Assembly: GCA_019166125.1 (NCBI GenBank)
Contig: JAHTBO010000003.1
Coordinates: 376,985 to 440,984, forward strand
From: Alcaligenaceae bacterium CGII-47
Lineage (GTDB): Bacteria; Pseudomonadota; Gammaproteobacteria; Burkholderiales; Burkholderiaceae_B
DNA length: 64,000 bases
Direction of reading: 5' to 3'
Part shown: positions 43,644-60,792 of the stretch, in pieces
How positions within the stretch are numbered: the stretch's first letter is position 1
Layout of the letters: each line of letters opens with the position of its first letter
Notes under the pieces: generated by a model
Database searches by the model: none
What the model saw: the letters and a program-made list of their open reading frames with translations, nothing else
What the model was told of the DNA's origin: nothing
Made by a program: the position numbers and the translations under genes

Positions 43644-43701
43644 GAACCTCATGGTGGTAAATCGGGGATAATGACTGAGTTTATCGCTTTTGCTCACGAT
43701 C

Positions 43702-44199
43702 ATGGCTATCACCCCCACCCCATGGCATGTTGTGCGCAGCTCCTCGCTACATGGACGGGGCGTATTTGCCGCCACAGACATCCCGGCAGGCACTCGTATC
43801 CTGAACTATGCCGGACGCCGTCTCACGCCCGAGCAGGCCGACGAGCGTTGGCCCGTGGATCCCAACGACCCGTATCACACCTTTTACTTTGCGCTCAGCT
43901 CAGGCAAGGTGATCGACGGCGGGCAGCGCGGCAACGACGCACGTTGGATTAATCACTCCTGTAGCCCAAACTGCGAAGCCCGCGAAAATGCCGCAGAGAC
44001 GCGCGTCGCCATCTATGCGCTTGTGGATATTGCATCTGGCGCCGAGCTGACCTATGACTATGGCTTGTTCACAGAAGAGCGCATGACCCGCACCCTCAAA
44101 CAGCATTACCGCTGCCTGTGCGGCACACCCGAGTGCCGGGGCACCATGCTGGCACTTAAAAAGCCGAGGCCGCGCAAAAGGCCGACAACTGCGGGATAG
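43702..44199 (+). CDS. SET-domain protein
   Basis: A 165-residue protein that is almost entirely a SET methyltransferase fold: [21 protein letters not shown] at the start, the cofactor/pseudoknot motif [13 protein letters not shown], then [11 protein letters not shown], and a post-SET CxCx4C motif [14 protein letters not shown]. All core SET residues expected for S-adenosylmethionine-dependent lysine methylation are present. The basic tail ends [13 protein letters not shown]. Bacterial SET proteins are uncommon but occur in Burkholderiales; targets are unknown. ATG 43702 is preferred to TTG 43690. It is divergent from ilvB with a 58-base gap. Confidence 0.85.
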
Positions 44200-44243: not shown

Positions 44244-44741
44244 ATGACCGAACACGCTCCGATGCCTCCCGCCCCCCCTGTGCGCATGTCACTACGCGTC
44301 GAAGACTGGCTCACCGTTCTCTCTCTGGGTACGCTGGCGATCATCACCATGACGAATGTGATCGTACGCTACCTGACGGATCAGTCGTTTGCCTGGACCG
44401 AGGAAATTTCTATTTTCTTGCTTATCGTACTTACGATGAGCGCCAGCTCGTCTGCCTTTGTACGCATGCTGCATATCCGCATCGAACTAATTGCCGATGG
44501 CGGCTCGCCCGCCCGCAAACGTAGGCTAGGCATTACCGCTGACACGATCACGCTGCTATTCTTTGTTCTGTTGACTGTTTTGCTGGGTCGCATGGCTTTG
44601 GATGAATTAAACTGGGGGGATACCTCTCCGGCCATCGGTATACCGACCTGGTGGTACACGATGTGGTTGCCCGTCTTATCCGGGCTCATCAGCCTGCGTC
44701 TGGCGGGAATGCTCACGCGTCGCTTGCGCGGCACACAATGA
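44244..44741 (+). CDS. dctQ: TRAP transporter small permease DctQ (second system)
   Basis: A 165-residue four-helix subunit: LGTLAIITMTNVIVRYLTDQSFAWTEEISIFLLIVLTMSASSSAF matches the DctQ pattern. Its stop overlaps the next gene by four bases. It is the first gene of a dctQMP run on the plus strand, with the binding protein last, the mirror of the order in the first system. Confidence 0.88.
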   Translation: MTEHAPMPPAPPVRMSLRVEDWLTVLSLGTLAIITMTNVIVRYLTDQSFAWTEEISIFLLIVLTMSASSSAFVRMLHIRIELIADGGSPARKRRLGITADTITLLFFVLLTVLLGRMALDELNWGDTSPAIGIPTWWYTMWLPVLSGLISLRLAGMLTRRLRGTQ

Positions 44742-46036
44742 TCCCGACGCTCCTGTTCACGCTATTTGTCGTACTCATGCTCATTGGCGTGCCGGTTGGC
44801 GTCGCCTTGGGCGCTGCGGGGACACTCGCCATTGCACTGGCCAATCCTGATACCCATTGGTTTGGCACGATGGCGATTTCTCAGAGCTTCTATGCTGGTC
44901 TGGGAAAATATCCACTGCTTGCAATTCCGATGTTTGTGCTGGTGGGTTCGATTTTTGATCGTTCCGGCGTCGCAAGCCGACTGGTGCGCCTGGCGCTCTC
45001 TGTCACGGGGCGGGGGCCCGGCATGCTCGCCGTCGTCACCATCAGTGTCGCCATGTTCCTGGGTGGCATTTCGGGCTCGGGTCCAGCCTGTGCCGCAGCG
45101 GTCGGCGCCGTCATGATTGCTGCCATGAACCGGGCGGGTTACCCACCGGCCTATTCAGCCAGCGTCGTCGCGGCGGGGGCCGCCACCGATATTCTGATCC
45201 CGCCGTCTATTGCCTTTATCGTCTACTCCATTCTGGTGCCCCAGGCCTCGGTGCCTGCGCTGTTTGCTGCAGGCATGCTCCCAGGGCTGTTGGCTGGAAT
45301 AGGCCTCATCATCCCGGCAGTCTGGCTCGCACGGCGCCACAATATGGGCCAAAATGAACAAACCGAGCCGCGCCCACCGTTCTGGCGCAGCCTCTACGAG
45401 TCGCTGTGGGGCCTGGCTGCGCCAGTCATCATTCTGGGCGGCATGCGCATGGGCTACTTCACGCCCACCGAAGCTGCGGTCGTGGCCGTGTTCTACGGCC
45501 TATTCATCGGCATTTTTGTACATCGCACGATGACGATCCGTGATCTATTTCCCATTCTGCGCGAGGCGGGCGAGCTCTCGGCCGTCATCATGATCGTGGT
45601 CACCCTAGCAGGAATTTTTGCCTGGTCACTGTCAACGCTGAGCATCATCGATCCAGTCACCCACGCCATTGTAAATTCGGGCCTGGGTGAATACGGTATC
45701 CTCGCGCTGCTGATCCTGCTGCTGATTGTGCTGGGTATGTTTCTGGATGGAATATCTATCTTTTTAATCTTCGTGCCCCTACTCATGCCGATTGCTCAGG
45801 CGTACCATTGGGATTTGGTGTGGTTTGGCGTCATCCTTACCCTGATGGTCGCCGTCGGCCAATTCACGCCGCCCGTCGCTGTGAACCTGATGGTGTCCTG
45901 CAAGATCGCCAATGTTCCCATGGAACACACCGTACGCTGGGTGGTCTGGCTACTCGCAGGAATGATGAGCACGCTAATCATTGTGATTGCATTTCCAGAA
46001 ATTGCCCTATGGCTACCACGTTATCTGGGCTATTAA
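44738..46036 (+). CDS. dctM: TRAP transporter large permease DctM (second system)
   Basis: A 432-residue permease with about 12 helices. Signature stretches are GLGKYPLLAIPMFVLVGSIFDRSGV, GGISGSGPACAAAVGAVMIAAM, ATDILIPPSIAFIVYSILVP and VPLLMPIAQAYHWDLVWFGVILTLMVAVGQFTPPVAVNL. ATG 44738 forms an ATGA overlap with dctQ. It differs clearly from the first DctM, so the two carriers are not a recent duplication. Confidence 0.92.
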   Translation: MIPTLLFTLFVVLMLIGVPVGVALGAAGTLAIALANPDTHWFGTMAISQSFYAGLGKYPLLAIPMFVLVGSIFDRSGVASRLVRLALSVTGRGPGMLAVVTISVAMFLGGISGSGPACAAAVGAVMIAAMNRAGYPPAYSASVVAAGAATDILIPPSIAFIVYSILVPQASVPALFAAGMLPGLLAGIGLIIPAVWLARRHNMGQNEQTEPRPPFWRSLYESLWGLAAPVIILGGMRMGYFTPTEAAVVAVFYGLFIGIFVHRTMTIRDLFPILREAGELSAVIMIVVTLAGIFAWSLSTLSIIDPVTHAIVNSGLGEYGILALLILLLIVLGMFLDGISIFLIFVPLLMPIAQAYHWDLVWFGVILTLMVAVGQFTPPVAVNLMVSCKIANVPMEHTVRWVVWLLAGMMSTLIIVIAFPEIALWLPRYLGY

Positions 46037-46057
46037 TTATTTATTCAGGAGGAGTTC

Positions 46058-47083
46058 ATGAAACTACGCACCCTGCTTGGCACATTAGCCTGCACGCTGG
46101 CGGCTTTATCCGTCACCGCAACGGCCCAGGCCGCTGATTACAAGTCCGAATACAAGCTCTCGATCGTGGTTGGCACCGCCTTCCCCTGGGGCCAGGGCGC
46201 GGTGATCTGGTCGGATCTGGTACGCGAGCGCACCGACGGTCGCATCAATATCAAAATCTATCCAGGCACCTCGCTGGTGCAAGGCGATCAGACCCGTGAA
46301 TTCACCGCCATCCGCCAAGGGGTAATCGACATGGCGATCGGCTCAACCATCAACTGGTCCCCGCAGGTCAAAGAGCTGAATCTGTTCTCCCTGCCCTTCC
46401 TCATGCCTGACTATGCCGCGATCGACGCGCTCATCGACGGCGCAGTCGGCGAATCGCTATTCAAGACCCTCGCCACCAAGGGCGTCGTGCCCCTCGCGTG
46501 GGGTGAGAACGGCTACCGCCAACTAAGCAACTCCAAGCACGCCGTCAAGACCCCTGAGGATCTAAAGGGCCTCAAGCTTCGCGTCGTTGGCTCACCGCTA
46601 TACATCGATACCTTCACCGCATTGGGCGCAAACCCAACCCAAATGAGCTGGGCCGATGCGCAGCCCGCATTGGCAAACGGTGCGGTTGATGGTCAGGAAA
46701 ATCCGCTATCGATTTACGCTGGCGCCAAGCTCTACGATGTGGCGCAAAAATACCTCACATTGTGGAACTATGTCGCTGACCCCTTGATTTTTGTCGTCAA
46801 CCAGGAGGTCTGGAATTCCTGGAGCCCTGAGGACCAAAAAATCGTACACGAGGCGGCACTTGAGGCGGCCAAAAAGGAAATCATGATTGCCCGCAAGGGC
46901 GTGACCTCTACCGACCCCTCATTGCTCAAGGACATCGAGAGCCATGGCGTGACGGTGACCGTCTTGTCGCCCGAGCAGATCAACGCGTTTGCCAAAGTCA
47001 CGCAGCCTGTTTTCGACAAGTGGACGCAGCAAATTGGGCCGGCTCTGGTTAAACAAGCCCAGACCGATATTGCCAAGCGCTAA
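46058..47083 (+). CDS. dctP: TRAP transporter substrate-binding protein DctP (second system)
   Basis: A 341-residue periplasmic binding protein with a signal peptide (LACTLAALSVTATAQAA). Family features are GDQTREFTAIRQGVIDMAIGS, LFSLPFLMPDYAAIDALI, LKGLKLRVVGSPLYIDTF with the substrate-contacting arginine, and WADAQPALANGAVDGQENPLSIY. AGGAG lies seven bases before the ATG. It is the last gene of the second TRAP set; the substrate is probably a carboxylate, but no closer assignment is possible. Confidence 0.9.
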   Translation: MKLRTLLGTLACTLAALSVTATAQAADYKSEYKLSIVVGTAFPWGQGAVIWSDLVRERTDGRINIKIYPGTSLVQGDQTREFTAIRQGVIDMAIGSTINWSPQVKELNLFSLPFLMPDYAAIDALIDGAVGESLFKTLATKGVVPLAWGENGYRQLSNSKHAVKTPEDLKGLKLRVVGSPLYIDTFTALGANPTQMSWADAQPALANGAVDGQENPLSIYAGAKLYDVAQKYLTLWNYVADPLIFVVNQEVWNSWSPEDQKIVHEAALEAAKKEIMIARKGVTSTDPSLLKDIESHGVTVTVLSPEQINAFAKVTQPVFDKWTQQIGPALVKQAQTDIAKR

Positions 47084-48299: not shown

Positions 48300-48482
48300 G
48301 GGGGCTACGAGACGATTCAATGGCTGATGTTTCAGATGGGCGGGATCGGACCGATATTCGGACAGGTAGGATTTTTCAATAAATTCGCTGGCGAGGAGTA
48401 CGCAATCGCGCCAGTCAGACGGCCGCAAGCCCTTAGGAATCAGATCAATTGCTCACGGCGAGCCTTTCCGTTGCAGCACTAG
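48300..48482 (+). pseudogene. Relic of a glutathione S-transferase (YfcG/Ure2p-like)
   Basis: In the same frame as the VOC relic, 48303-48410 reads GYETIQWLMFQMGGIGPIFG and then QVGFFNKFAGEEY, the well-known segment after the thioredoxin domain of YfcG/Ure2p-type glutathione S-transferases (WLMFQMGG-x-GP-x-x-GQ). The similarity fades after about 48410, and the frame runs on to a TAG overlapping the BCCT gene end. The N-terminal glutathione-binding domain is absent, so this is a fragment. Confidence 0.7.
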
Positions 48483-50070
48483 GCTGAGGACGAACCGGCA
48501 CGACCTGCCCATGCCGCATGATCCCGGAGATCACGGGAGACGAGAGTTCCGCCCCGAAGTCCTGACGCACCCAGCGTAGCAGCGACACCAACATAATGAC
48601 GAGTACCGGGATCATCGGCAAGGCGACCAATACCGTAGAAATCTGCACTGCCTCCAGACCACCGACGGATAAGAGACCAACCCCTACAAAGGCCAACATC
48701 AGCGTCCACAGAATACGGTTCCAGCGTGCTGGCTCCTGGTAGCCCGAGATTTCTTTGGTACACACCGCTGCCAGCATATAAGCTGAGGAGTCCACCGTCG
48801 TCGCCAAAAAAACAAAGCACAGCAAGGTAAAGGCTGGCAGCACTAAACCAGATAGCGGCAGGGTTTTTAAAATCGCCACGACCGTCGCAGGGGTGCCGCT
48901 CTTACTCAAAATAGCCTGTAGATCCAGCGCACCGCTCATCTGCAGATCCAGGGCATAACCACCCCATATGGCGAAGAATGCCCAACACCCCACGCTGCCC
49001 CAGACCACACCATTAACGATAAGCTCCTTGATCGTGCGGCCTCGCGAAATCCGTGCAACAAACAGGCCCATCATCGGCGCATAGGCCACCCACCATGCCC
49101 AGTAGAAAATCGTCCAACTCTCAGGAAAGCCGCCATGCTTGATCGGGTCAGTCCAGAAACTAATACGGAAAAAATTATCCAGTAGTAGACCAAAGCTGTT
49201 GCTCCACAAGTTCAGCAGAAATATTGTAGGTCCTGCAATCAGTACAAAAAACAGGATTAGGAATCCTAAGACAGCATTGATATTAGAGAGCGTTTGAATA
49301 CCCTTGTTCAAGCCGTTATAGACGCTCCAGGCAATCATCCCAGTCCATGCTGCCAGAATACTCATTTGCAATAAGAATGAATCGCCAACCCCAAAGATAG
49401 CCTGAAACAATTCGGACACTAGCGGCACAGACAATCCCAGAGATGTTCCCACACCTCCGGTAATGGAAAAAATTACAATAATATCGATCAATTTTCCCAC
49501 TGGACCATCTACAGCATCACCCAGCACACCTCGACAGGCCTCACTCATGCGCAAGACATGGACCTTACGAACATAGAGCGCATAAGCAATGGGTAAGGCG
49601 GGCATCAGATACAAAGCCCAGGGCACGACCCCCCAATGAAACATTGGATACATCGCCGCCCACTCCGCAGCGATTGATGTACCCACCTCTAATCCCATAG
49701 GCGGACCTGAGAGAAAATAAAGAGGCTCGACAAAAGCCCAGTTACATATTGAAATACCTATGCCAGCACAGAACAGCATGACGATCCACGAGACTTTCTT
49801 GAATTCTGGAACATCGTCCGGACCCCCGAGCTTAATACGCCCAATCGGCCCAAAGGCCAGCCAGCACATAACGAAAAAGCTACCAATCCCGGCCAGCAGG
49901 TAGAGCCAGCCAAACGTGCTAGTTGTCCAACTTAGAACATTACTGATAGCGATTTTTCCCGCATCAGGATAAATCATCAAGGGACTGACTACAGCCAGGA
50001 TGACAATGATTGCCGGCCATAAGACAGATTGATCAATAGTCAGATTATTTCTTTCTTTAACATCGCTCAC
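48445..50070 (-). CDS. BCCT-family transporter, CaiT-like
   Basis: A 541-residue carrier with about 12 helices. The segment FWTDPIKHGGFPESWTIFYWAWWVAYAPMMGLFVARISRGRT closely follows the CaiT/BetP core, keeping the WW-x-x-Y aromatic box that binds a trimethylammonium group. PMFHWGVVPWALYLMPALPIAYALYVRK is the second conserved stretch. Known BCCT substrates include carnitine, gamma-butyrobetaine, betaine, choline and dimethylsulfoniopropionate. The glycine site usually linked to sodium coupling reads CAGIGISICNW. The coding is visibly more AT-rich than neighbouring genes. With the CaiD- and CaiE-like genes nearby, carnitine or gamma-butyrobetaine is the best guess. Confidence 0.85.
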   Translation of the reverse strand: MSDVKERNNLTIDQSVLWPAIIVILAVVSPLMIYPDAGKIAISNVLSWTTSTFGWLYLLAGIGSFFVMCWLAFGPIGRIKLGGPDDVPEFKKVSWIVMLFCAGIGISICNWAFVEPLYFLSGPPMGLEVGTSIAAEWAAMYPMFHWGVVPWALYLMPALPIAYALYVRKVHVLRMSEACRGVLGDAVDGPVGKLIDIIVIFSITGGVGTSLGLSVPLVSELFQAIFGVGDSFLLQMSILAAWTGMIAWSVYNGLNKGIQTLSNINAVLGFLILFFVLIAGPTIFLLNLWSNSFGLLLDNFFRISFWTDPIKHGGFPESWTIFYWAWWVAYAPMMGLFVARISRGRTIKELIVNGVVWGSVGCWAFFAIWGGYALDLQMSGALDLQAILSKSGTPATVVAILKTLPLSGLVLPAFTLLCFVFLATTVDSSAYMLAAVCTKEISGYQEPARWNRILWTLMLAFVGVGLLSVGGLEAVQISTVLVALPMIPVLVIMLVSLLRWVRQDFGAELSSPVISGIMRHGQVVPVRPQPSAATERLAVSN

Positions 50071-50188
50071 GGTTTGTGTCTCCTAAGCTACATGTAATTA
50101 TTTTTTAGAGTTTCAGTTATTGTTATAAAAGCCTGAAAACTCGCTCTAAATTGTTATGTCATTATCTTTCTTGTTATATGCATCTCAC
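50071..50188 (-). other. Gap between ligase and BCCT genes with imperfect hairpin
   Basis: The 118-base AT-rich gap holds an imperfect inverted repeat (GAGTTTCAG near 50113 and CTGAAAACTC near 50135). TAGGAG lies close to the BCCT start on the minus strand. It could be an attenuation or processing site within the minus-strand transcript, or hold a separate BCCT promoter. Confidence 0.3.
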
Positions 50189-52282
50189 TTATCCACTCAT
50201 CCGAATCAAGGCATCAGCCGCCACAGCGCCCTTGCCTTTTGGGCGCACCATTAGGGGATTGATATCCAACTCGGTAATACTGTCCCAGCGACTCAATGCA
50301 AAATCAGCCACGGCCATCACAGCATCCACGACCGCCACCATGTCCCCCTCCGGCCGGCCACGGTACCCCTGCAACAGAGCAGCGCCCTTCAACGAACACA
50401 GCGCTTCATGCACCATTTCTCTGGATACGGGTAATAACAAGGTCACACTGTCATTGATCAAATTAACCAAGATCCCGCCACTCCCGATGATCAACGCCAG
50501 ACCGAACTGCTTATCGCGTTTGAGCCCAATAATAAGTTCCCCAACCGCATCAGTGATCATCGGCTCGACCAAGAAACGAATATCCTCCAGACCCTGGCTA
50601 GCAAGGCGTTCAGCCATATCCCGGGCGGCAGCAACTACTGCAGGGCAATCCTTCAGCCCCAATACAACAGCCCCAGCTTCGGTCTTATGCGCCAGACGGT
50701 CACTGACTCCCTTTATGACCACGGGATAACCTACTCGATCAGCAGCGCGCGCGACTTCAGCCTGCATAACCATCTCACCACCGGGCGAGCACAGGCCATG
50801 AACGCCAAGCAACTGCTTAGACGCCCACTCATCCAGCATCTGGCTCTCTTCGACCGCTGATACTTGACGCAACAGCAGGTCGCGCGGGGCCAGCATGGCA
50901 GCAACCTGGCGCCGACGCTCGCCATAGCGAACCCACTGCGTCAGAGCGGATACGCCATCCCTGAGCCCCTGTAGTGGGGCAATGCCTGCGGCGGCGAGTC
51001 GCACACGCGCATCTTCTGGCATCAACTCACAGAAGTTGCTGATAACAGCTGCTGTCTTGCTATGATCCGCGTGTGCTGCGATCACGGCATCGATGGCAAC
51101 CTGCCAGTCGCTATCATCGCCAATTCCCTGTTTGGGAAAGTCTAGAATCAACAAGGTTGCATCATATTCGCCCTTCATCATAATGCTGAACACAGCACGA
51201 CAGGCGTCAAAATTGCCCCAGATCGATGTGTTGTAATCCAGTGGGTTTGACCGGCTGGCAAAACTCGGTAACCAGTCGTCAAGCTGTCGATTCTGAGCTT
51301 CAGACAGAGCAGGAAGCTGCAGATGCGTTCGCTCCAAGCTGTCAGCCAGCATGGCGCTGTCCCCACCCGAACACGTCAGCACACCGACTCTTGCACCAGC
51401 AGGCAGCTCGCACAAGGCCGCGATCTTGAGCGTTTCCACCAACTCGCTCAAGGCGTAAACGCGCAAAATACCAAACCGATCAAACAGTGCCTGATATAAC
51501 TCATCGGAGCCCGCCAGCGAGCTGGTGTGGCTTAAGGTCAGCTGTGTGCCGATCTCCGATGTGCCGGCCTTCAACACAATCAGCGGCACGCCCTTTTGCA
51601 GTGCCTTTAACGCTGCCCGGCCAAAGGACTCGATGTCCTTGATGCCTTCAATGTAGAACCCGATCGCAGCGACTCGCTCATCATCGAGCAGGGGCTCAAT
51701 GTAGTCGCCCACCCCTAGCACCGCCTGATTGCCCACGCTGATGACATGCGTGATCGGCAAGGATCGCTCGTGCATCGTCAGGTTCAGCGCGACATTACCA
51801 CTCTGGCTGATGATGGCAACTCCGCGCTGTGTGCGCACACCGCAGAGCCGATCCGGCCAGAGAGCAACTCCATTTGTGAAGTTCAACAGACCATAGCAAT
51901 TGGGACCTACCAGCGCCATGTCTGCGGCAGCAGCGACGAGATCATCCTGCAACTGGACACCCGATCCACCAACCTCGGCAAAGCCAGCGGCATAGCACAC
52001 CACGCCACCACACCCGCGATCTCGCAGCTGTGCAACGAGCGGTACCGTCGCCTGGGCATTCACCGATATAAACGCAGCATCTGGCACACCTGGCAGTGCG
52101 GCAACCGATGGATAGCACGTTACCCCTGCAATCTGCTTATGCTTGGGATTGACGATCCAGATATCGCCGTCAAAACCAATACTCTGAGTATTGCGGATCG
52201 GTAGCTCCAGATTGGTGCCACCGATCATCACGATGCTACGGGGCGACAGCAGGCGCCGCAAATTATCTTGCTTGGACATCAT
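50189..52282 (-). CDS. NDP-forming acyl-CoA ligase (acetate-CoA ligase superfamily)
   Basis: A 697-residue fused alpha/beta enzyme. The CoA-binding domain opens LLSPRSIVMIGGTNLE; a ligase-CoA domain follows, with the phosphohistidine in LTLSHTSSLAGSDELY. The C-terminal ATP-grasp domain has GYPVVIKGVSDRLAHKTEAGAVVLGL. Relatives activate acetate, ferulate and other acids, and one group (DddX) cleaves DMSP in an ATP- and CoA-dependent way. In this cluster it takes the place of CaiB/CaiC and probably activates carnitine or gamma-butyrobetaine. The start may be ATG 52282 or ATG 52279. It is 21 bases downstream of the acyl-CoA dehydrogenase. Confidence 0.85.
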   Translation of the reverse strand: MMSKQDNLRRLLSPRSIVMIGGTNLELPIRNTQSIGFDGDIWIVNPKHKQIAGVTCYPSVAALPGVPDAAFISVNAQATVPLVAQLRDRGCGGVVCYAAGFAEVGGSGVQLQDDLVAAAADMALVGPNCYGLLNFTNGVALWPDRLCGVRTQRGVAIISQSGNVALNLTMHERSLPITHVISVGNQAVLGVGDYIEPLLDDERVAAIGFYIEGIKDIESFGRAALKALQKGVPLIVLKAGTSEIGTQLTLSHTSSLAGSDELYQALFDRFGILRVYALSELVETLKIAALCELPAGARVGVLTCSGGDSAMLADSLERTHLQLPALSEAQNRQLDDWLPSFASRSNPLDYNTSIWGNFDACRAVFSIMMKGEYDATLLILDFPKQGIGDDSDWQVAIDAVIAAHADHSKTAAVISNFCELMPEDARVRLAAAGIAPLQGLRDGVSALTQWVRYGERRRQVAAMLAPRDLLLRQVSAVEESQMLDEWASKQLLGVHGLCSPGGEMVMQAEVARAADRVGYPVVIKGVSDRLAHKTEAGAVVLGLKDCPAVVAAARDMAERLASQGLEDIRFLVEPMITDAVGELIIGLKRDKQFGLALIIGSGGILVNLINDSVTLLLPVSREMVHEALCSLKGAALLQGYRGRPEGDMVAVVDAVMAVADFALSRWDSITELDINPLMVRPKGKGAVAADALIRMSG

Positions 52283-52303
52283 AAGTTCTCGCGCGCCTTC
52301 GTA

Positions 52304-53470
52304 TTACCAACCGGTGTAGAGGTCAAGACCGCGCTTTTTGATCTGGCCGCTGATCACCACGCGCTGTATCTCTGACGTGCCTTCCCAGATACGATCCACG
52401 CGGGTATCCCGCCACAGCCGCTCGACGGGCTGCTCACGCATATAGCCTCTGCCACCGAGGATCTGCACGGCCTTATCGCACACGCGACCCACCATCTCGG
52501 AGCAAAATAACTTCAAGGCTGAGGCATGCGCATGATTGCGTTTGCGGTCGCCGCTTTGATCAATTTCCCAGCTCAAGCGATAAAGCATGGACTTTGCCGC
52601 CATGATCTCGACAGCCATATCTGCCAGCATGAACTCAATCGCCTGGAAATCCCGGATAGGCTGGCCAAACTGAATTCGCTCAGCGGCGTACTTATTGGCC
52701 TCCTCGGTCGCGCGAATGGCTCCACCTACGCAGCGTGCGGCGATACCCAGGCGAGCTTCCACAAACCAGTCTTTGGTCATGTTGTAACCTTCGCCGATGT
52801 CGCCAAGGATCTTATCCTCACCCACCACGACATCTTTGAAAATAAATTCGGGATGCTTAAAAGCAAAGTGATGCGTATAGAGGGGCGTGCGCTTGACCTC
52901 GACACCAGGCAGATTCTTATCCACAAAAAACACTGCGGATTTGGCGGGGTCCCCATCGACGTGTGCGTGCACCAGGATGTAGTCGGCGATATCGCCAATT
53001 GTGACGAACCACTTTTCGCCGTTTATTTTCCAGCCGCCCTCGACCTTGTCTGCACGGGTCATACACTGCGATGGATCCGAGCCAGCTTCAGCTTCGGTGA
53101 TCGCGTAGGCGTCACGGCGTTTGCCTTGGCAGGTGGGGATTAGATATTCTTCTTTTTGCGCCTGCGTGGCAAAGCGCATGGGATAGGACGGATACCACAG
53201 GGCATCCCAGATCGCGCCGGTCGCTTTGCCGAGTTGTTCGTTTAACAAGCTCTGCTCAAATATGGAAAAACCCTGGCCGCCATCTGCCTTACTGTGATTA
53301 GGCGCATTGAATTCCCATGCCAGCGTGGCTGCGATGATTTTTTGATGTGTTTCTCTGCTGATGCCGTCGTTCTCTTCGCACTCTATCTCATGAGGGAACA
53401 GAACCTGCTCGGTGAATTCTTTTGCCTTGGCCTGCAATGCCAAATGCTCTTTTGAAAGATTGAAATCCAT
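52304..53470 (-). CDS. Acyl-CoA dehydrogenase, CaiA-like position
   Basis: A 388-residue flavoprotein. Family features are YAITEAEAGSDPSQCMTRADK, GEKWFVTIGDIADYILVHA, ERIQFGQPIRDFQAIEFMLADMAVEIMAAKSMLYRL and the C-terminal QILGGRGYMREQPVERLWRDTRVDRIWEGTSEIQR, whose Glu in GTSE is the usual catalytic base. The flavin and CoA sites look complete, so it is probably active. In E. coli CaiA reduces crotonobetainyl-CoA; this protein looks like a standard beta-oxidation enzyme that would oxidise gamma-butyrobetainyl-CoA or a similar thioester. GGAG lies before ATG 53470. It is the first gene of the minus-strand arm. Confidence 0.88.
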   Translation of the reverse strand: MDFNLSKEHLALQAKAKEFTEQVLFPHEIECEENDGISRETHQKIIAATLAWEFNAPNHSKADGGQGFSIFEQSLLNEQLGKATGAIWDALWYPSYPMRFATQAQKEEYLIPTCQGKRRDAYAITEAEAGSDPSQCMTRADKVEGGWKINGEKWFVTIGDIADYILVHAHVDGDPAKSAVFFVDKNLPGVEVKRTPLYTHHFAFKHPEFIFKDVVVGEDKILGDIGEGYNMTKDWFVEARLGIAARCVGGAIRATEEANKYAAERIQFGQPIRDFQAIEFMLADMAVEIMAAKSMLYRLSWEIDQSGDRKRNHAHASALKLFCSEMVGRVCDKAVQILGGRGYMREQPVERLWRDTRVDRIWEGTSEIQRVVISGQIKKRGLDLYTGW

Positions 53471-53750
53471 ATTGAGTCTCCACTGACTATTGCTGTGATA
53501 TGCCGGATACCCGAGGAATCAGGCGATTGCTTTTTATGCTACGTCAGGGACTTGGATCTTAATTGATGAAACGCGACACGAATGTTTATTTTCCCGACAG
53601 ATATCTAAAACCTTAAGCCACGTTAGTCCTAACAACGCGTCGTTTTTATTAAGCGATATGTCGTATATGCTCAACAGTATGGTGAGACATAACTGCTAAG
53701 GTAGAACGACCCGACAGCGTGCTACCTATCAGATGGAAAAGGAATCTTGC
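53471..53750. promoter_or_regulatory. Divergent regulatory region of the carnitine-type cluster
   Basis: The 280-base AT-rich gap separates the divergent acyl-CoA dehydrogenase and caiD-like genes and should hold both promoters. CCCGACAG occurs as a direct repeat at 53593-53600 and 53710-53717. No full palindrome was found. AraC/GlxA-type regulators often use paired direct half-sites, so this is the natural place for the regulator encoded at 55906-56895 to bind. The site assignment is inference. Confidence 0.45.
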
Positions 53751-54536
53751 ATGGCAACATCCGTACAGACTGCACAACATGGTGCGGTGCTGATAATTAC
53801 CTTGGATCGCCCAAAAGCCAATGCTATCGACTGCGCCACCAGCCGTCGGCTGCACGAAATACTCAGCATGTTCAAAGAAAGCCCCAATCTACAGGTCGCT
53901 ATCCTTACCGGTGCCGGAGAACGGTTCTTCTGCGCAGGCTGGGACCTGAATGCAGCGGTCAGTGGCGAGGCCGTTGATGCAGATCACGGACCAGGCGGAT
54001 TTGCTGGACTAACAGAGCTGTTTTCCCTCAATAAGCCGGTCATCGCTGCGGTCAATGGCATGGCGGTTGGTGGCGGGTTCGAGTTGGCCCTCGCCTGCGA
54101 CCTGATCGTAGCCGTCGAGCAGGCTCAATTTTTCCTACCTGAAGCCCAGATCGGTATCGTCCCAGATTCGGGTGGCGTATTTCGCCTGCCCAAGCGCCTG
54201 CCACGATCCGTCGCTCTTGAAATGATGCTTACCGGGCGGCGTATGGGTGCCGCTGAGGCGCTCCGATGGGGCCTCGTCAATGCGGTAGTGAATAGCGACT
54301 CGTTGATCCCCAATGCCCTAGCACTTGCTGCCCGTATCACTGCCAGTGCACCGCTGGCCCAACAGGCGATCAAGGAATTAGTGAATGCATCCGAAAACTT
54401 GTCCGTCGCAGACGCCTTCGCGCTACAACGCAGCGACACACTTCCCGCTTATCGTTGTATGCTCCATTCCGAGGACGCCTCCGAGGGAATCCAGGCATTC
54501 GCTGACGGTCGGACACCCGCCTGGAAAGGCTGCTAA
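53751..54536 (+). CDS. caiD: CaiD-like enoyl-CoA hydratase (crotonobetainyl-CoA hydratase type)
   Basis: A 261-residue crotonase-fold enzyme, exactly the length of E. coli CaiD. Similarity to remembered CaiD is strong along the whole protein: TLDRPKANAID, ITGAGE-like TGAGERFFCAGWDLNAA, DHGPGGFAGLTELF, VNGMAVGGGFELALA, LPEAQIGIVPDSGGVFRLPK and TGRRMGAAEALRWG, ending PAWKGC. Expected reaction: reversible hydration of crotonobetainyl-CoA to L-carnitinyl-CoA. ATG 53751 has AAAAGGA about eight bases upstream; an in-frame ATG at 53733 is less likely. It heads the plus-strand arm of the cluster. Confidence 0.82.
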   Translation: MATSVQTAQHGAVLIITLDRPKANAIDCATSRRLHEILSMFKESPNLQVAILTGAGERFFCAGWDLNAAVSGEAVDADHGPGGFAGLTELFSLNKPVIAAVNGMAVGGGFELALACDLIVAVEQAQFFLPEAQIGIVPDSGGVFRLPKRLPRSVALEMMLTGRRMGAAEALRWGLVNAVVNSDSLIPNALALAARITASAPLAQQAIKELVNASENLSVADAFALQRSDTLPAYRCMLHSEDASEGIQAFADGRTPAWKGC

Positions 54537-54547
54537 AGAAACTCATT

Positions 54548-55330
54548 ATGATCACTATATTCAAACCTGATTTGTTTGCTGAGCAGACCGTACTCGTCAC
54601 GGGCGGCGGCAGCGGCATCGGCCTGGCCATTGCCCGTCTTTTCGGACAGTTGGGCGCCAGTGTCATCATCGCCGCCCGCGATGAGACGCGTTTGAGCGCG
54701 GCTGCGACGAGCCTGACTGAGGCGGGTCTGCGTGTCACTACGCAGGCCGTGAACATCCGAGACATGGACTCGGTCGACGCCTTATTCGAGCGCCTGGACG
54801 CCCAAGGCATCGGGATCGATGTTCTCGTCAATAATGCAGGTGGCCAGTTCACAGCACCGGCCCTGGATATCTCCGCCAATGGCTTTCGTTCCGTATTGGA
54901 CCTGAATTTGCAAGGGACTTTTCAGATGAGTCAGCGCTATGCGCGCCACTGCCAGTCCCGCAAGGCGACCGGCTGTATTGTCAATATCGTGCTCTGCCTG
55001 GAGCAAGGCATCCCTGGCATGGCCCATGCAGCAGCGGCACGCGCGGGCGTTGTGAACCTGACTAAAACCTTGGCCTGGGAATGGGCGAGTTTGGGCATTC
55101 GGATCAATGCAATTGCGCCAGGCACCATCGAGACAAGCGGTCTGAAGAACTACGACTCCGATAACTTGCAGCGAGGCATAGCCAAGCTGCCCATCAAGCG
55201 CATGGGTTCGCCCGAAGAGGTCGCTCAAGCAGTCGCTTTTTTGGCCAGCGACGCTGCAGCCTATATCACCGGCATCTGCCTCGCACAGGATGGTGGCGAG
55301 CACCTGACGGGCGCCTCCCCCCAGTATTGA
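54548..55330 (+). CDS. SDR-family oxidoreductase, PECR/DECR-like, lacking the canonical YxxxK
   Basis: A 260-residue short-chain dehydrogenase. The nucleotide motif TGGGSGIG and NNAGG are normal, and the C-terminus ends [10 protein letters not shown]. At the active site the usual YxxxK is replaced by [14 protein letters not shown], the arrangement seen in peroxisomal trans-2-enoyl-CoA reductase-type SDRs, where the pattern reads HSGAARAG. The substrate is therefore probably a CoA thioester: reduction of crotonobetainyl-CoA, or oxidation of a 3-hydroxyacyl-CoA. It starts 11 bases after caiD and ends 20 bases before caiE. No SDR belongs to the classical cai operon. Confidence 0.78.
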
Positions 55331-55350
55331 TACACAGAAAGGATCACGCC

Positions 55351-55941
55351 ATGCCCTGCTATGAATTTGAAGGCCTCACACCAGTGGTACACCCCAGCGC
55401 CTATGTGCATCCCACTGCTGTTCTCATCGGCGATGTAATTGTCGGCCCGGGTGTGTATATCGCTCCCTTAGCCTCACTGCGTGGCGATTACGGACGCCTC
55501 ATTCTGGAGGCGGGCGCCAACCTGCAGGACAATTGCGTCATGCATGGCTACTGTGATATGGATACCATCGTGCAAACCAACGGCCATATCGGCCATGGCG
55601 CAATTCTCCACGGATGCATCATTCAGCGAAACGCGCTGGTCGGCATGAATGCTGTAGTAATGGATGGCGCGGTCATTGGCGAGGACAGTATTGTTGCTGC
55701 AATGAGCTTTGTGAAAGCGGGCTTCCAGGGCCAGCCCCGGCAGCTTCTTCTGGGCTCTCCTGCCAAGGTCATCAGGGAAGTGTCTGAAGCAGACCTGCAC
55801 TGGAAGGGTCTCAATACCCTAGAGTATCAGGCACTAGCTCGGCGCTCAGCATCCAGTATGCATGAGGTCCAGCCTCTACAGGAGTCCGAGCCTAACCGAC
55901 CCCGCTTACGTGGTATCACCAACGTCCAGCCTAAGGCATGA
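55351..55941 (+). CDS. caiE: CaiE-like gamma-carbonic-anhydrase-fold protein
   Basis: A 196-residue left-handed beta-helix hexapeptide protein, the same length as E. coli CaiE. The match to remembered CaiE is strong: [80 protein letters not shown] and [12 protein letters not shown]. The metal-binding histidines of the gamma-carbonic anhydrase fold are in MHG and [10 protein letters not shown]. PaaY is the closest alternative, but the SLRGDYG, MHGYCD and SFVKAGF stretches favour CaiE. CaiE's exact role is not settled (it has been linked to CaiB/CaiD cofactor supply). AAAGGA lies seven bases before ATG 55351. Its end overlaps the convergent regulator gene. Confidence 0.85.
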
Positions 55942-56895
55942 GCGACTGGCACTCGGGCTGCAGCTAAAATGTCTTCGATAGCTACGGGTAAAGTGCGCGG
56001 CTGACCCAAAGCCACAGGCGATACCGATTTCGGCAATGCTCAAACGAGAATCCTTGAGCAACTGCTGGGCATGCTCCAGCCGCAAGCTCATATAGTATGC
56101 CGCCGGAGAACGCTTCAGGTGGGTGCGAAACAAGCGTTCCAACTGGCGTACCGACATACACGCATATCCGGCTAATTGACTGAGTGTGACGGGATCTTCA
56201 AGGTTTCTCTCCATCTGTTCGACGACTCTCAATAGCCTGGGGTGATCGATATTGAGCCGATCGGCCAGATCAATGCGTTGCTTATCGGATTTTTGCCGGA
56301 TACCGCTCTTAATGAACTGCTCACACACCCGGATTGCAAGGTCATAGCCAAAATCAGCCTGAATGATGTGGAGCATCAAATCAATCGCTGCCGTACCGCC
56401 CGCACAGGTAATAAGGTTCCGATCTATTTCAAATAACTCGTTTGTGATCTCCAGACCAGGATGATCTTCCTGAAAAGCGGATGCTGCTTCCCAGTGCATC
56501 GTCACGCGACGATTTTTCAATAGACCTGCCGCCTCCAACAAGTGGCATCCAGTGTCCATCGCACCGATCACAGCGCCGTTATTGGTAATTTTCTTGAGCC
56601 AGGCAGTGGTGCTCTTTTGAATGTATTTTTCAGGATGAAAACTAGAGCAGATGAATAGATTTCTAGGCGCCGGGACACCATGGATCGAATCAGAGCGCTG
56701 TAGCATCAACTGATTGCTCGCAAACACGGGTTCGTCAGTTTCAGTCAACAACTGCCAACGAAAAACCGCCCTGCCTGCAAAGCGATTCGCTACCCGCATC
56801 GGTTCAATCGCCGAGAGCAGGGCGACCATCGCATATTCAGGCAGCAATAGAAACGAGACCGTCAGCGTTCCGTCAACATCAGGCTTGAGAATCAT
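55906..56895 (-). CDS. GlxA-family AraC transcriptional regulator (CdhR/GbdR-like)
   Basis: A 329-residue regulator with an N-terminal DJ-1/GATase1-like domain ([60 protein letters not shown]) and a C-terminal AraC double helix-turn-helix ([50 protein letters not shown]). The same architecture is used by the Pseudomonas carnitine and betaine regulators CdhR and GbdR. It overlaps the caiE end by 36 bases tail to tail. It starts nine bases after the amn stop, so it may be transcribed with purine genes, but function more likely concerns the cai-type cluster. TTG 56901 is an alternative start. Confidence 0.83.
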
Positions 56896-56904
56896 CGACA
56901 AACT

Positions 56905-58401
56905 CTATTTGAACGCGGTCTCGATGAAACTACGCAACTTGCGTGAGTGCAGCCGCTCTCTAGGCATTTCACGCAACTTCTCGAGTGCGCGAATACCAAT
57001 ATGCAAATGCTGATTCACCTGCGTACGATAGAACGCGCTTGCCATGCCAGGCAGCTTCAGTTCCCCGTGCAGCGGCTTATCTGACACACACAACAGCGTC
57101 CCATAAGGCACCCGGAAGCGGAACCCATTGGCAGCAATCGTCGCTGACTCCATATCCAGCGCAATGGCACGTGACTGGGACAGCCGCTGCACCGGTTCCT
57201 GCTGATCACGTAGTTCCCAATTGCGGTTATCAATCGTTGCCACGGTCCCGGTACGCATGATTTTTTTCAATTCCCAACCCGACAAACCAGCGACCTCAGC
57301 CACGGCCTGCTCTAGTGCGACCTGCACCTCGGCGAGCGGGGGCACGGGCACCCAGATCGGCAAATCATCATCCAACACATGATCCTGGCGCACATAGCCG
57401 TGCGCCAGCACGTAGTCACCCAGACGCTGCGTGGTGCGTAGCCCTGCGCAATGACCCAGCATCAGCCAGGCAGACGGGCGCAACACGGCCACGTGATCGG
57501 TGATGGTCTTGGCATTGGACGGCCCCACGCCGATATTGATCAACGTGATTCCGGAATGATTGGCACGCTTGAGGTGGTAGGATGGCATTTGCGGGCCGAC
57601 CCCAGGCGGGCTACTGTCCAACCCCGCGGTCTCAGGCGTCACGATCCGATTGCCCGGCTCGACCAACTCGGTATAGCCCCCGACACCGCGCACAAGCGTC
57701 TCACGCGCCCACCTGGCGAACTCATCAACATAGAACTGATAATTAGTAAACAGCACGAAGTCCTGAAAGTGCTGTGGCGCCGTCGCGGTGTAATGCTGCA
57801 GGCGATGCAGCGAGTAATCCACACGGGGTGCCGTAAACGGCCCCAGAGGACGTGGTACGCCAGGGCGGTCTTGCCATGTGCCATTCACAATCGCGTCGTC
57901 AGTCACCGCGAGGTCGGGTACGTCGAAGTGATCCCTCAGTGTATTGCCCGGCGACTCTGTGTATTCGCCCTCGACGTACTCACCTTCGGGAAATGAAAAA
58001 TGCAGCGGAATAGGCATATCCGACTCGCCGATTTCTACGGGTACACCATGATTGCGGATCAACAAACCGATCTGTTCACACAGGTAGTCGTGGAATAAGG
58101 CTGGCTGCGTGACCGTCGTCATATACAGGCCTGGTTCGACCAGATGGCCGTACGATAATCGGCTATCAACCTCCTGGTAGGTCTGGATGCGGATACGAAT
58201 GGCCGGGTAGCAGGCGCGTACACGCTGCCCCGGGGGCAAACCGTCTGCGCAATAAGACCGGAACGCCTCACGGATGAATGAGGTGTTGCGCGCATAGATG
58301 TCCAGCAACTTCTGGGTCGCCGCATGGGCATCGGTATAACTGGAAAACGGAATAAGTATGGGCAGCATCGTCGGCCGCGTCGTGTGCATAAAATCGTTCA
58401 T
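56905..58401 (-). CDS. amn: AMP nucleosidase
   Basis: A 498-residue enzyme that splits AMP to adenine and ribose 5-phosphate. The N-terminal domain includes YPAIRIRIQTYQEVDSRLSYG and PIPLHFSF; the nucleoside-phosphorylase-like C-terminal domain has INIGVGPSNAKTITDH, RPSAWLMLGHCAGLR and AIALDMESATIAANGFRF. The length is close to the 484 residues of E. coli Amn. With guanine deaminase and xanthine dehydrogenase upstream, it fits purine salvage and breakdown. It is 18 bases downstream of guaD. Confidence 0.92.
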   Translation of the reverse strand: MNDFMHTTRPTMLPILIPFSSYTDAHAATQKLLDIYARNTSFIREAFRSYCADGLPPGQRVRACYPAIRIRIQTYQEVDSRLSYGHLVEPGLYMTTVTQPALFHDYLCEQIGLLIRNHGVPVEIGESDMPIPLHFSFPEGEYVEGEYTESPGNTLRDHFDVPDLAVTDDAIVNGTWQDRPGVPRPLGPFTAPRVDYSLHRLQHYTATAPQHFQDFVLFTNYQFYVDEFARWARETLVRGVGGYTELVEPGNRIVTPETAGLDSSPPGVGPQMPSYHLKRANHSGITLINIGVGPSNAKTITDHVAVLRPSAWLMLGHCAGLRTTQRLGDYVLAHGYVRQDHVLDDDLPIWVPVPPLAEVQVALEQAVAEVAGLSGWELKKIMRTGTVATIDNRNWELRDQQEPVQRLSQSRAIALDMESATIAANGFRFRVPYGTLLCVSDKPLHGELKLPGMASAFYRTQVNQHLHIGIRALEKLREMPRERLHSRKLRSFIETAFK

Positions 58402-58419
58402 GTACTCATTATCGCCTGA

Positions 58420-59748
58420 TCAGCGCGCCCGCGTATGTACCTGCTGGCCCGCCGCATAAGTCGCGGCCACCGCCCGATCATCTCCCAGCATTGCCAGAGC
58501 AAACAGCAGCTCCTCGAGCGATTCGGAATGGGATGTCCGGCGTGCCAGCAGCGGCGTGGCACTGGGGTCCAACACCACAAAATCCGCCTCTGCACCAATT
58601 GCCAAGGTGCCAATCTGGCCCGAGAGATTTAGATCACGCGCCGCACCTTGCGTCGCCAACCAGAACATACGCCGTGCCGTCAGGTAATAGCCCGAGAGCC
58701 GGGCAACCTTGTGGGCCTCATTCATCGTATGAAACATGGAAAACGACGACCCGCCACCTACGTCTGTAGCCAGGGCCACCGCCGTGTCTGATTTTTCAGC
58801 CGCGGCAAAATCGAACAGACCGCTACCCAAAAACAGATTCGAGGTTGGACAGTGCGCCGCCACCGCGCCTGTATCGTGCATACGCTGCCAATCCGTATCA
58901 TCCAACCAGACACAATGTCCGTATACCGCACGCGGGCGCAATAGCCCATATTGATCATAAATATCCAGGTAGCTGCGCGCATCCGGAAACAATGCCGCAG
59001 CCCATTTCACCTCATCCTCATTCTCGGCGACGTGGCTCTGGATGAACACGTCCTGATACTGCCGGGCCAATTCCCCACAGCGCCCGAGTTGCTCTGGGGT
59101 GGAGGTCGGCGCGAACCGCGGCGTAAGCGCATACATCTGCCGCCCCGTGCCGTGCCAGCGTTGTAGCAGCGCCTCGCTCTCGCGCGCACCGGACTCGGCC
59201 GTATCACGCAAAAACGCCGGGCAGTTGCGATCCATCATGACCTTGCCCGCGATCATGCGCAGATTACGCGCATGGCTCTGGGCAAAGAACGCCTCAACCG
59301 ACTCGGGATGTACGGTGCAATACACTAGGGCCGTGGTGGTCCCGCAACGCAATAGCTCATCCAGGAAAAAATGTGCGACCTCTGCGGCGTATTCTGGATT
59401 TTCAAAACGACGTTCAGTCGGGAAGGTGTATTTTTCCAGCCATGGCAACAGGCCAGGCGCAGGTGAGGCAATGATATCGGTCTGCGGATAATGGATATGA
59501 GCGTCGATAAAGCCAGGCACGATTAGCTTACCGCGCCAGTCCACAATCGGTACAGTAGGCGCCAAGGTCGCCACCAAACGTGCATAGTCACCCACCTGCT
59601 CGATGTGGCCACCGCGTACCACCAGCAGACCATCCTCGACCCATTCGACCGCCTCATCCTCGGCCTGTCTGTCATCGCGAAAATACAATAGATGCGCACG
59701 ATAGGCGCGCACCGAGTCGGCCGTATGGCCATGTCCAGGCGTGGTCAT
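58420..59748 (-). CDS. guaD: Guanine deaminase
   Basis: A 442-residue amidohydrolase that converts guanine to xanthine. Zinc ligands are in PGFIDAHIHYPQTD, in FIQSHVAENEDEV, in YGHCVWLDD and in ATDVGGGSSFSM; the guanine-specific LPWLEKYTFPTERRF is present. It lies downstream of xdhC and feeds xanthine to the xanthine dehydrogenase encoded by the same operon. Confidence 0.93.
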   Translation of the reverse strand: MTTPGHGHTADSVRAYRAHLLYFRDDRQAEDEAVEWVEDGLLVVRGGHIEQVGDYARLVATLAPTVPIVDWRGKLIVPGFIDAHIHYPQTDIIASPAPGLLPWLEKYTFPTERRFENPEYAAEVAHFFLDELLRCGTTTALVYCTVHPESVEAFFAQSHARNLRMIAGKVMMDRNCPAFLRDTAESGARESEALLQRWHGTGRQMYALTPRFAPTSTPEQLGRCGELARQYQDVFIQSHVAENEDEVKWAAALFPDARSYLDIYDQYGLLRPRAVYGHCVWLDDTDWQRMHDTGAVAAHCPTSNLFLGSGLFDFAAAEKSDTAVALATDVGGGSSFSMFHTMNEAHKVARLSGYYLTARRMFWLATQGAARDLNLSGQIGTLAIGAEADFVVLDPSATPLLARRTSHSESLEELLFALAMLGDDRAVAATYAAGQQVHTRAR

Positions 59749-59772
59749 AGGGAGTCATTCCGAAAAAAGGTT

Positions 59773-60792
59773 TCAGACAAGGGCGTGGGCACACTGCATA
59801 GGGGTGAGACGGGTCGCGCCATCAACACGCGCCCGCAACAGTTGGGCGGCCACTGCGACCGCGATGACAGCCGGCTGCTTACCGATGATACCCGGCTCGC
59901 CGATGGGGCAGACAATCTGGCGATAACGTTCCTCAGGGATCCCGCGCGCACGGAACCGGTGTTCAAATTTTTGACGTTTGCTCATTGATCCGATCAGCCC
60001 AAGATACGCCACATCATCGCGACGCAGCAGATATTCACACAGGCGCTGATCCAGCGCATGATCATGCGTCATAATCAGAAAGAAACTCTCGGGGGGCGCC
60101 TGATCGATGATCGCCTCAGGGGTATCCGTGGCTTCTATGGTTATATTGTCCGGTAACGCCGTTGGAAACATCTCCTCGCGCTCATCCACCCAAGTGACCC
60201 GACAAGGCAGTGTCCCAAGAATATGCACCAACGCCTTACCCACATGGCCGGCACCAAAAATGACGATATTCTGGGTGGCGGGCGCAATCCGCTCGGCGTA
60301 GAACATGACACCCTGCTCGTCTTTGGCTAGCAATTTATTGGGGACCGAATCATCCGCACCCAAGTCCGGCGCCTGCGCAAGCTGCACCTGAGCAGCCCCC
60401 CCTTGGGACGTCAGACTGACTCGACGCACCACGGCCTGACCAAGCAACAAACGATCACGCAAAGACATCAGCCAGACACGATCCGACTCGTTCAGACGCT
60501 CGAACAGCAGATGCACCATGCCACCGCAGCACTGGCCCAATGAGGGTCCCAACGGCAGGCGTTCGATCCAGCGGTCAGGCACATGGGCGGCGTACAGACG
60601 TTTGCGGGCAATGTCCACAGCCATCCACTCCAACTGGCCGCCACCTATGGTGAGCCACTGCCGTTTATCCGAGACAAGCAGCTTGGCCCCTGCTTCGCGA
60701 GGCGTTGAGCCCTGTGCCCAGCCCACGCTCACCAATGCCAGGGCCTGGCCCCGGTCAAGGCTCCAGAGCGCCTGATCGATCCAGTCATGCAT
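59773..60792 (-). CDS. xdhC: Xanthine dehydrogenase accessory protein XdhC
   Basis: A 339-residue XdhC. The N-terminal XdhC/CoxI domain (VSVGWAQGSTPREAGAKLLV, CCGGMVHLLFERL) and the C-terminal Rossmann-like domain (IFGAGHVGKALVHILGTLPCRVTWVDERE, YLGLIGSMSKRQKFEHRFRARGI) are complete. XdhC binds the molybdenum cofactor, protects it until sulfuration and inserts it into XdhB. Its ATG overlaps the xdhB stop by one base (TAATG). Confidence 0.93.
   Translation of the reverse strand: MHDWIDQALWSLDRGQALALVSVGWAQGSTPREAGAKLLVSDKRQWLTIGGGQLEWMAVDIARKRLYAAHVPDRWIERLPLGPSLGQCCGGMVHLLFERLNESDRVWLMSLRDRLLLGQAVVRRVSLTSQGGAAQVQLAQAPDLGADDSVPNKLLAKDEQGVMFYAERIAPATQNIVIFGAGHVGKALVHILGTLPCRVTWVDEREEMFPTALPDNITIEATDTPEAIIDQAPPESFFLIMTHDHALDQRLCEYLLRRDDVAYLGLIGSMSKRQKFEHRFRARGIPEERYRQIVCPIGEPGIIGKQPAVIAVAVAAQLLRARVDGATRLTPMQCAHALV

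Follow-up and report, generated by a model that had tools for sequence, protein, structure and literature searches.

The window analysed here, a stretch of 64,000 nucleotides from contig JAHTBO010000003.1 of Alcaligenaceae bacterium CGII-47 (a 3.45 Mb assembly), carries at positions 48445-56901 a cluster of seven intact open reading frames (ORFs), whose family assignments, taken from NCBIfam and Pfam profile matches, point to the metabolism of carnitine-type compounds. Two divergent gene sets flank an intergenic region at 53471-53732, delimited by reading of the sequence. The set on the minus strand encodes an acyl-CoA dehydrogenase (ACD; 52304-53470, 388 residues, catalytic Glu363), an NDP-forming (nucleoside diphosphate-forming) acyl-CoA ligase (50189-52282, 697 residues, with ATP-grasp_5, Succ_CoA_lig and CoA_binding_2 domains) and a BCCT-family transporter (48445-50070, 541 residues; Pfam PF02028, 498.8 bits), while the set on the plus strand encodes a CaiD-type crotonobetainyl-CoA hydratase (53733-54536, 267 residues), a short-chain dehydrogenase/reductase of the PECR/AtuG type (SDR; 54548-55330, 260 residues) and an orthologue of CaiE, related to PaaY (55351-55941, in an ORF that opens at 55327). 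The gene of an AraC-family regulator of the GlxA/GbdR type (55906-56901, minus strand) converges on that of CaiE. This regulator shows the DJ-1/PfpI and HTH_18 domains expected of the GlxA-type protein named in the initial annotation, its nearest NCBIfam model is GbdR (321.7 bits, below the cut-off of 480), and an internal ATG in its ORF is consistent with the end at 56895 given earlier. The G+C content is 54.0% in the cluster versus 57.9% in the window.

The arrangement is not a product of chance, because five other genomes repeat the gene order (three families, including that of the window), one of them with no BCCT gene at the locus; the observation made in the initial annotation is confirmed. 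This six-genome variant, in which the CaiE-SDR-CaiD set is divergent from the ACD-ligase set, is defined by the presence of SDR and CaiE without a linked carnitine dehydrogenase or BKACE, and comprises two Castellaniella genomes (presumably that of the window, and C. caeni), two Psychrobacter, one Pontibacterium and a Marinobacterium metagenome-assembled genome. The BCCT gene follows the ligase gene in five of the six loci, the exception being C. caeni, where a family-5 solute-binding protein and an ABC (ATP-binding cassette) transporter occupy that place. The ACDs of the other five loci are 85-91% identical to that of the window (91% for the Psychrobacter copies) over a range of locus G+C from 45% to 66% where measured, which suggests that the variant cluster has spread by horizontal transfer; no nearly identical plasmid copies were found. 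The divergent regions did not yield any 10-12-base word shared by at least five of the six at the mismatch limits used, and neither the promoter scan (5 versus 6.9 in shuffles) nor the terminator scan (8 versus 7.6, sd 2.7) gave an excess.

The genome scan for the ligase returned 50 loci, and 51 neighbourhoods were clustered, with the window included and L028 left out as lying in the same place as L033. In these neighbourhoods, many of them on cut contigs, the ligase was counted in 50, the ACD in 47, a CaiD-type protein in 44, a BKACE-type protein in 25, a carnitine-dehydrogenase-type protein in 20, the SDR in nine and CaiE in six; the AraC cluster and two others were mixed with antisense ORFs and left uncounted. 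Across most of the loci compared, ACD and CaiD accompany the ligase, and carnitine dehydrogenase and BKACE are frequent neighbours, which is the arrangement of rhizobial and roseobacter type.

For the ligase itself, 70 proteins were aligned: seven of the window's group (those of the six variant loci, the window included, and of L077, a hybrid locus of Marinobacterium jannaschii), 42 further clade members and 21 generic homologues drawn from the family of the window. L047, L074, L075, L078 and two of 23 generic loci had aligned stretches too short for inclusion. A starred branch of the resulting tree parts the 49 clade members from the 21 generic proteins, and the clade keeps a support of 100/100 in a subset tree of 37 rows (27 of the 49, eight of the 21, DddX and a 4-hydroxybutyrate:CoA ligase). 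The clade is also marked by aromatic residues absent from all 21 generic proteins: Y350 and W355 occur in 49 of 49 members, W142 in 48 and W393 in 45, a signature that may offer a search handle for users of gamma-butyrobetaine. The window's ligase thus belongs to a carnitine-linked clade, as does the ligase of a Rhizobium leguminosarum plasmid (L106), and is a candidate gamma-butyrobetaine/carnitine:CoA ligase. Adjacent to the window's group in the tree are two more ligases, those of L034 (57%) and L072 (52%), whose contigs are short or one-sided and display no SDR or CaiE gene. Within the window's family, orthologous ligases were found in two of 200 genomes, its own included (100% and 67% identity, other matches at E<=1e-80 reaching 37% or less), and within the order in one of 399, its own; since at most five and two candidates per genome were scored, respectively, these absences are weak.

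All 49 ACDs encoded in the clusters form one clade relative to E. coli CaiA and to 11 of the genome's own 14 ACD paralogues, with a support of 88 (unstarred, with long branches around it). Three tryptophans, W235, W353 and W362, are present in all seven members of the window's group and in 90% or more of the other cluster ACDs, while among six paralogues and CaiA, which were compared with them, none has W235 or W362 and one has W353. Because both ligase and ACD group with copies often found beside carnitine dehydrogenase and BKACE, a carnitine-type substrate is suggested for both. At the catalytic column, 16 of the 49 cluster ACDs have Glu, including all seven of the window's group, and 33 have Asp, whereas E. 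coli CaiA has Gly. The catalytic glutamate claimed in the initial annotation is accordingly found in the alignment as Glu363, and an acid at this position favours a dehydrogenase. The protein is 31% identical to CaiA of E. coli K-12 and scores 171 bits against the NCBIfam CaiA model (cut-off 540), so that it does not qualify as a CaiA-type reductase; its best NCBIfam match is an acryloyl-CoA reductase, at 236 bits versus a cut-off of 640.

The CaiD-like protein is 59% identical to E. coli K-12 CaiD versus 39% to PaaF, reaches 363.7 bits with the CaiD model of NCBIfam (cut-off 500; next crotonase model 255.2), and retains in the alignment both of what we take to be the crotonase glutamates. In a quick tree of 49 rows, for which the SH-like approximate likelihood-ratio test (SH-aLRT) is the sole measure of support, the cluster CaiD proteins form a group that includes E. 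coli CaiD (98, starred), and PaaF, PaaG, the distant best crotonase match of L053 and a second hydratase of the Pontibacterium locus (L031) fall outside it. The CaiE-like protein is 73% identical to E. coli K-12 CaiE versus 62% to PaaY, and passes the NCBIfam cut-off for CaiE (380.5 bits, cut-off 305) but not for PaaY (310.2 bits, cut-off 319.6). A tree of 37 rows joins E. coli CaiE with the window's protein, its five counterparts from the variant clusters, and L111 and L127 of the same genus (86/98, unstarred), leaving E. coli PaaY and the remaining family matches outside. Both assignments have thus withstood the phylogenetic comparison that the initial annotation named as able to refute them, by a grouping with unrelated hydratases and PaaY. 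The function of CaiE in E. coli is, to our knowledge, unsettled. A CaiE gene is also seen in another genome of the genus (L153/L111; 347.6 bits, above the curated cut-off) close to the end of a contig; some 8 kb away lies the gene of a TRAP solute-binding protein that shares 88% identity with the one encoded at 46058-47083 of the window. This other genome has no ligase match at E<=1e-80.

The SDR is best matched, among proteins of solved structure, by 3imf, AtuG (6lln), PECR (1yxm) and DECR2 (4fc6), which agrees with the PECR-type assignment made initially. PECR and DECR reduce enoyl-CoA. The Tyr and Lys of the usual catalytic triad are replaced by Ala161 and Arg165, in six of six orthologues, so that the protein departs from classical ketoreductases; AtuG and human PECR have Ser and Arg at the same positions, although their substrates are unrelated and the likeness is one of score among solved SDRs. 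Without this Tyr and Lys, it is doubtful that carnitinyl-CoA is oxidized by the mechanism usual for SDRs; the idea of a dehydrogenase acting on the hydroxyacyl thioester, put forward in the initial annotation, is weakened, and the SDR is probably not the carnitinyl-CoA dehydrogenase. A search for it detected one of 398 genomes, the window's own (at most six candidates scored per genome, hence a weak absence), and within the genus, at 1e-45, three of ten, namely the own genome, C. caeni (75%) and one match of 43%. On a Sphingopyxis plasmid, the gene of a 50%-identical SDR adjoins that of an ACD, in the company of genes for hydratase and biotin-dependent carboxylase.

The transporter has the WW-x-x-Y aromatic box named in the initial annotation, in the form WAWWVAY, but "CaiT-like" describes it loosely: among PDB chains it matches DddT best (463 bits, versus 301 for CaiT), it stays below the CaiT equivalog cut-off (448.5 bits, cut-off 541), and it is 33% identical to E. 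coli K-12 CaiT. By alignment reading, the column of CaiT Arg262, a residue with a role in Na+-independent antiport, holds Asn, and the protein does not qualify as a CaiT-type antiporter. Uptake of gamma-butyrobetaine, crotonobetaine or carnitine is its likely function. A second BCCT gene of the same genome (L001, C1:450514-451959) has a Pfam score of 675.8 bits, above that of the cluster protein.

Several enzymes that could extend a carnitine pathway were sought across whole genomes. In that of the window, carnitine dehydrogenase was not found at 1e-30, CaiB at E<=1e-40, nor BKACE or a YeaW-related Rieske protein at 1e-20. In the six variant genomes no carnitine dehydrogenase comes close to the curated score, the matches in two of them being weak (176 and 152 bits), and BKACE is present in two of the six (C. 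caeni, 362 bits; Pontibacterium, 228 bits), outside the stretch around the cluster. Conversely, L035, with a ligase of the same clade, carries a carnitine 3-dehydrogenase of 718.9 bits (cut-off 592). The hybrid L077 joins a variant-type ACD (89%) and ligase (66%) and a CaiD of the other group with an L-carnitine-dehydrogenase-like protein (310 bits, cut-off 414) and BKACE on the same stretch. It also encodes, at L077:13194-15728, an 844-residue protein with two CoA-transferase family III stretches, a layout that we would presume to be DddD-like.

The cluster was compared with published systems. BcoAB of Sinorhizobium meliloti is, in the available text of PMC8364193, an ATP-dependent gamma-butyrobetaine:CoA ligase that was used to prepare the CoA ester; strain HK4 of Lonza, close to Rhizobium meliloti, is described in part of PMC2131755 as converting gamma-butyrobetaine into carnitine by a route resembling that of fatty acids; and S. 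meliloti SM2011_c01638 is reported in the accessible portion of PMC12482172 to convert carnitine to 3-dehydrocarnitine and betainyl-CoA to betaine, activities that fit the dehydrogenase-thioesterase fusion (of NF005716 length) annotated beside the Rhizobium ligase. An NDP-forming ligase, an ACD, a carnitinyl-CoA dehydratase and a GlxA regulator are annotated together in Rhizobium and Ruegeria, as in the window, which in contrast has SDR and CaiE without a linked carnitine dehydrogenase/thioesterase or BKACE, a BCCT protein in place of an ABC transporter, and an ACD only 34-38% identical to most of theirs. The window thus shares with the bco-type route the linked ACD and CaiD-type dehydratase, and lacks its carnitine 3-dehydrogenase and BKACE. 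With the E. coli cai operon it shares orthologues of CaiD and CaiE, a BCCT transporter and an enzyme of the ACD family; it differs in having an NDP-forming ligase rather than CaiC in the cluster, no CaiB in the genome at the limit given, Glu at the catalytic column of the ACD, an added SDR and a GlxA-family regulator. The statement of the initial annotation that the combination was undescribed is not supported, given the annotations in Rhizobium and Ruegeria and the publication of BcoAB (PMC8364193, as far as its available text goes): the core belongs to a type of route already known and extends it to further hosts, and the core combination is not new. No description of the SDR/CaiE variant was found in the literature among the matches listed, subscription literature lying largely outside the coverage.

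The reading considered probable is that the cluster serves to convert gamma-butyrobetaine into carnitine through CoA esters by a bco-type route, in which SDR and CaiE stand where carnitine dehydrogenase and BKACE are missing. The BCCT protein would import gamma-butyrobetaine, and probably also crotonobetaine and carnitine; the ligase would form the CoA ester; the ACD would oxidize gamma-butyrobetainyl-CoA to crotonobetainyl-CoA, its electrons presumably passing to the electron-transfer flavoprotein; and CaiD would hydrate the product to L-carnitinyl-CoA. CaiE would most likely release carnitine from CoA, as a thioesterase, or help to do so, the SDR, of enoyl-CoA-reductase type and devoid of the Tyr and Lys of alcohol dehydrogenases, would most likely act on the pool of enoyl-CoA, and the GlxA-family regulator would control the cluster. 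This interpretation is favoured because the ligase clade is common to loci with carnitine 3-dehydrogenase (as in L035) and BKACE, because L077 combines an ACD and a ligase of variant type with an L-carnitine-dehydrogenase-like protein and BKACE, because a single ACD clade with its shared tryptophans unites both groups, because of Glu363 and of the orthology of CaiD and CaiE, and because BcoAB of S. meliloti is an ATP-dependent gamma-butyrobetaine:CoA ligase. The mechanism up to carnitinyl-CoA is supported at the level of sequence, and with it the carnitine-type substrate and the oxidative order ligase-ACD-CaiD of the initial annotation, which the CaiD and CaiE trees, the grouping of ligase and ACD and the catalytic acid of the latter uphold. 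The exact substrates, the direction, the roles of CaiE and SDR and the regulation are what we infer from this framework. As a more tentative extension, SDR and CaiE may provide a second ending of the route in place of carnitine dehydrogenase and BKACE, either through a reversible, redox-buffered exchange among gamma-butyrobetaine, crotonobetaine and carnitine or by breaking down carnitinyl-CoA in a way not yet described, which, if true, would give CaiE a testable role. The cluster joins proteins of the anaerobic cai system, CaiD and CaiE, to a ligase and a dehydrogenase of bco type within a single, apparently mobile unit, and the variant isolates the question of what replaces carnitine dehydrogenase and BKACE, and of what CaiE does.

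Several points weigh against this reading. No enzyme for carnitine beyond carnitinyl-CoA, be it carnitine dehydrogenase, BKACE or a YeaW-related Rieske protein, is found in the window's genome at the limits used, which leaves a growth pathway incomplete on paper; the CaiD score is below its equivalog cut-off; the BCCT protein is nearer to DddT than to CaiT; the SDR resembles reductases, which would run in the opposite direction; the catalytic column is Asp in 33 of the 49 ACDs from the clusters, none of these being in the variant group, and the two groups may therefore not work alike; and the membership of S. meliloti BcoAB in the ligase clade is one we infer from its operon and not from its sequence.

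A reductive use of the cluster in the manner of cai, in which carnitine or crotonobetaine is activated, CaiD dehydrates, the SDR (with NADPH) and/or the ACD reduce to gamma-butyrobetaine and the BCCT protein exchanges substrate for product, is rather unlikely. It would suit the closeness of CaiD and CaiE to the E. coli proteins, the kinship of the SDR to AtuG, PECR and DECR2 with the loss of the ketoreductase residues, and the absence of downstream carnitine enzymes at the limits used, but it conflicts with Glu in the ACD where CaiA has Gly, with Asn at the CaiT Arg262 column, and with L077, where the same ligase and ACD are paired with genes of carnitine oxidation; several of the hosts, moreover, are presumably aerobes. 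Complete beta-oxidation, with the SDR making 3-dehydrocarnitinyl-CoA from carnitinyl-CoA and a housekeeping thiolase cleaving it to betainyl-CoA and acetyl-CoA, would suit the six loci that carry SDR and CaiE without linked carnitine dehydrogenase and BKACE. Nevertheless, the exchange of the triad Tyr and Lys in all six orthologues, the absence of a thiolase among the seven genes by NCBIfam and Pfam, and that of a YeaW-related protein, a possible betaine enzyme, from the genome at 1e-20 make it decidedly improbable. It is very improbable, too, that trimethylamine is released by a BbuA-like ACD, turning gamma-butyrobetainyl-CoA into crotonyl-CoA for processing by CaiD and SDR. Such a reaction is attributed to BbuA, an ACD-like flavoenzyme, in the available text of PMC8364193, and it would account for the missing downstream genes. 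In Pontibacterium, genes for a 3-hydroxybutyryl-CoA dehydrogenase and a short-chain enoyl-CoA hydratase are adjacent (L031:14089-15759, after the BCCT gene), yet a hairpin that looks like a terminator by eye precedes this pair, CaiD is by orthology a crotonobetainyl-CoA hydratase, and the ACD falls with its counterparts from operons that contain carnitine dehydrogenase (support 88), BbuA being compared by description only. The Emergencia timonensis bbu cluster, as partly seen in PMC8364193, likewise processes gamma-butyrobetaine as its CoA ester, by means of an enzyme of the ACD family, and has a BCCT-type transporter; unlike the window's cluster, it belongs to an anaerobe, activates by the CoA transferases BbuB/C and eliminates trimethylamine.

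Dimethylsulfoniopropionate (DMSP) or beta-betaine as substrate came into question through the best PDB matches of ligase and transporter, DddX and DddT; a DddX-like ligase/lyase and a DddT-like BCCT protein, with the other enzymes handling acryloyl-CoA, would recall the DMSP cluster of Psychrobacter sp. D2 in transporter family and ligase superfamily, and the weak acryloyl-CoA reductase match of the ACD points the same way. The ligase scores, however, nearly tie between DddX (236 bits) and the 3-hydroxypropionate and 4-hydroxybutyrate ligases (235.3 and 231.6), DddX is placed outside the 100/100 clade, and its identity to any row of the tree does not exceed 29%. The cation-pi residues of DddX are Trp391 and Phe435, according to the part of PMC8163506 available. 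The aromatic stretches of the clade lie near these, though not column for column: His292 of DddX is kept as H252, but the Trp391 column holds N351, and F435 and E432 align with Q394 and S391 in phmmer and with other residues in MAFFT, where the stretch is gapped and unsure, so that equivalents of the DddX site are not evident. An acid (D/E) precedes W393 in seven of seven variant-group ligases, near the DddX Glu432 stretch, but the wider clade does not conserve it. None of the seven genes belongs to what we take to be the DddB and DddC families, and CaiD, CaiE and the carnitine genes of L077 point elsewhere. Tree and residue comparison led this explanation to be dropped as highly improbable.

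Two further candidates for the same system were rejected on the available text of the sources. On Psychrobacter plasmid pP32BP2, CAR is a carnitine monooxygenase system and CAI is given as CaiA and CaiB only (PMC6514802), and the carnitine island of SAR11 has a gamma-butyrobetaine dioxygenase (PMC12421898). For a thiodipropionate cluster containing a "carnitinyl-CoA dehydratase", the growth phenotype is tied to other genes in what is available of PMC6370202. Among the six variant genomes, that of P. fozii CECT 5889 is reported to contain a carnitine-monooxygenase-like gene set (PMC6514802, in part), which would offer carnitine a fate there; the YeaW search in this genome gave only a 28% match.

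Related loci and neighbouring genes add some detail. On the megaplasmid of Ruegeria pomeroyi DSS-3 (L158, SPO_RS21285-21265), genes for a GlxA regulator, an ACD, the ligase, a DJ-1/PfpI protein and a carnitinyl-CoA dehydratase lie in a row, within 22 kb in which no gene is annotated as carnitine dehydrogenase or BKACE. This copy is unlinked to the verified carnitine transporter cntTUVW (SPO2995-2998; PMC10130141, as far as available). In Sinorhizobium numidicum, a plasmid (L157) has the ligase gene followed by those of a carnitinyl-CoA dehydratase and two ACDs; a BKACE gene and one for a PaaI-type thioesterase lie some 3-5 kb upstream. In the window, TRAP-type transporter gene sets at 39047-41873 and 44244-47083 flank, by reading, an acetolactate-synthase-like gene (41892-43793). 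On the other side of the cluster, within 56905-63882, an AMP nucleosidase-like gene adjoins the regulator according to the profile scan, and is followed, up to 63882, by what are presumably lookalikes of guanine deaminase and of parts of xanthine dehydrogenase.

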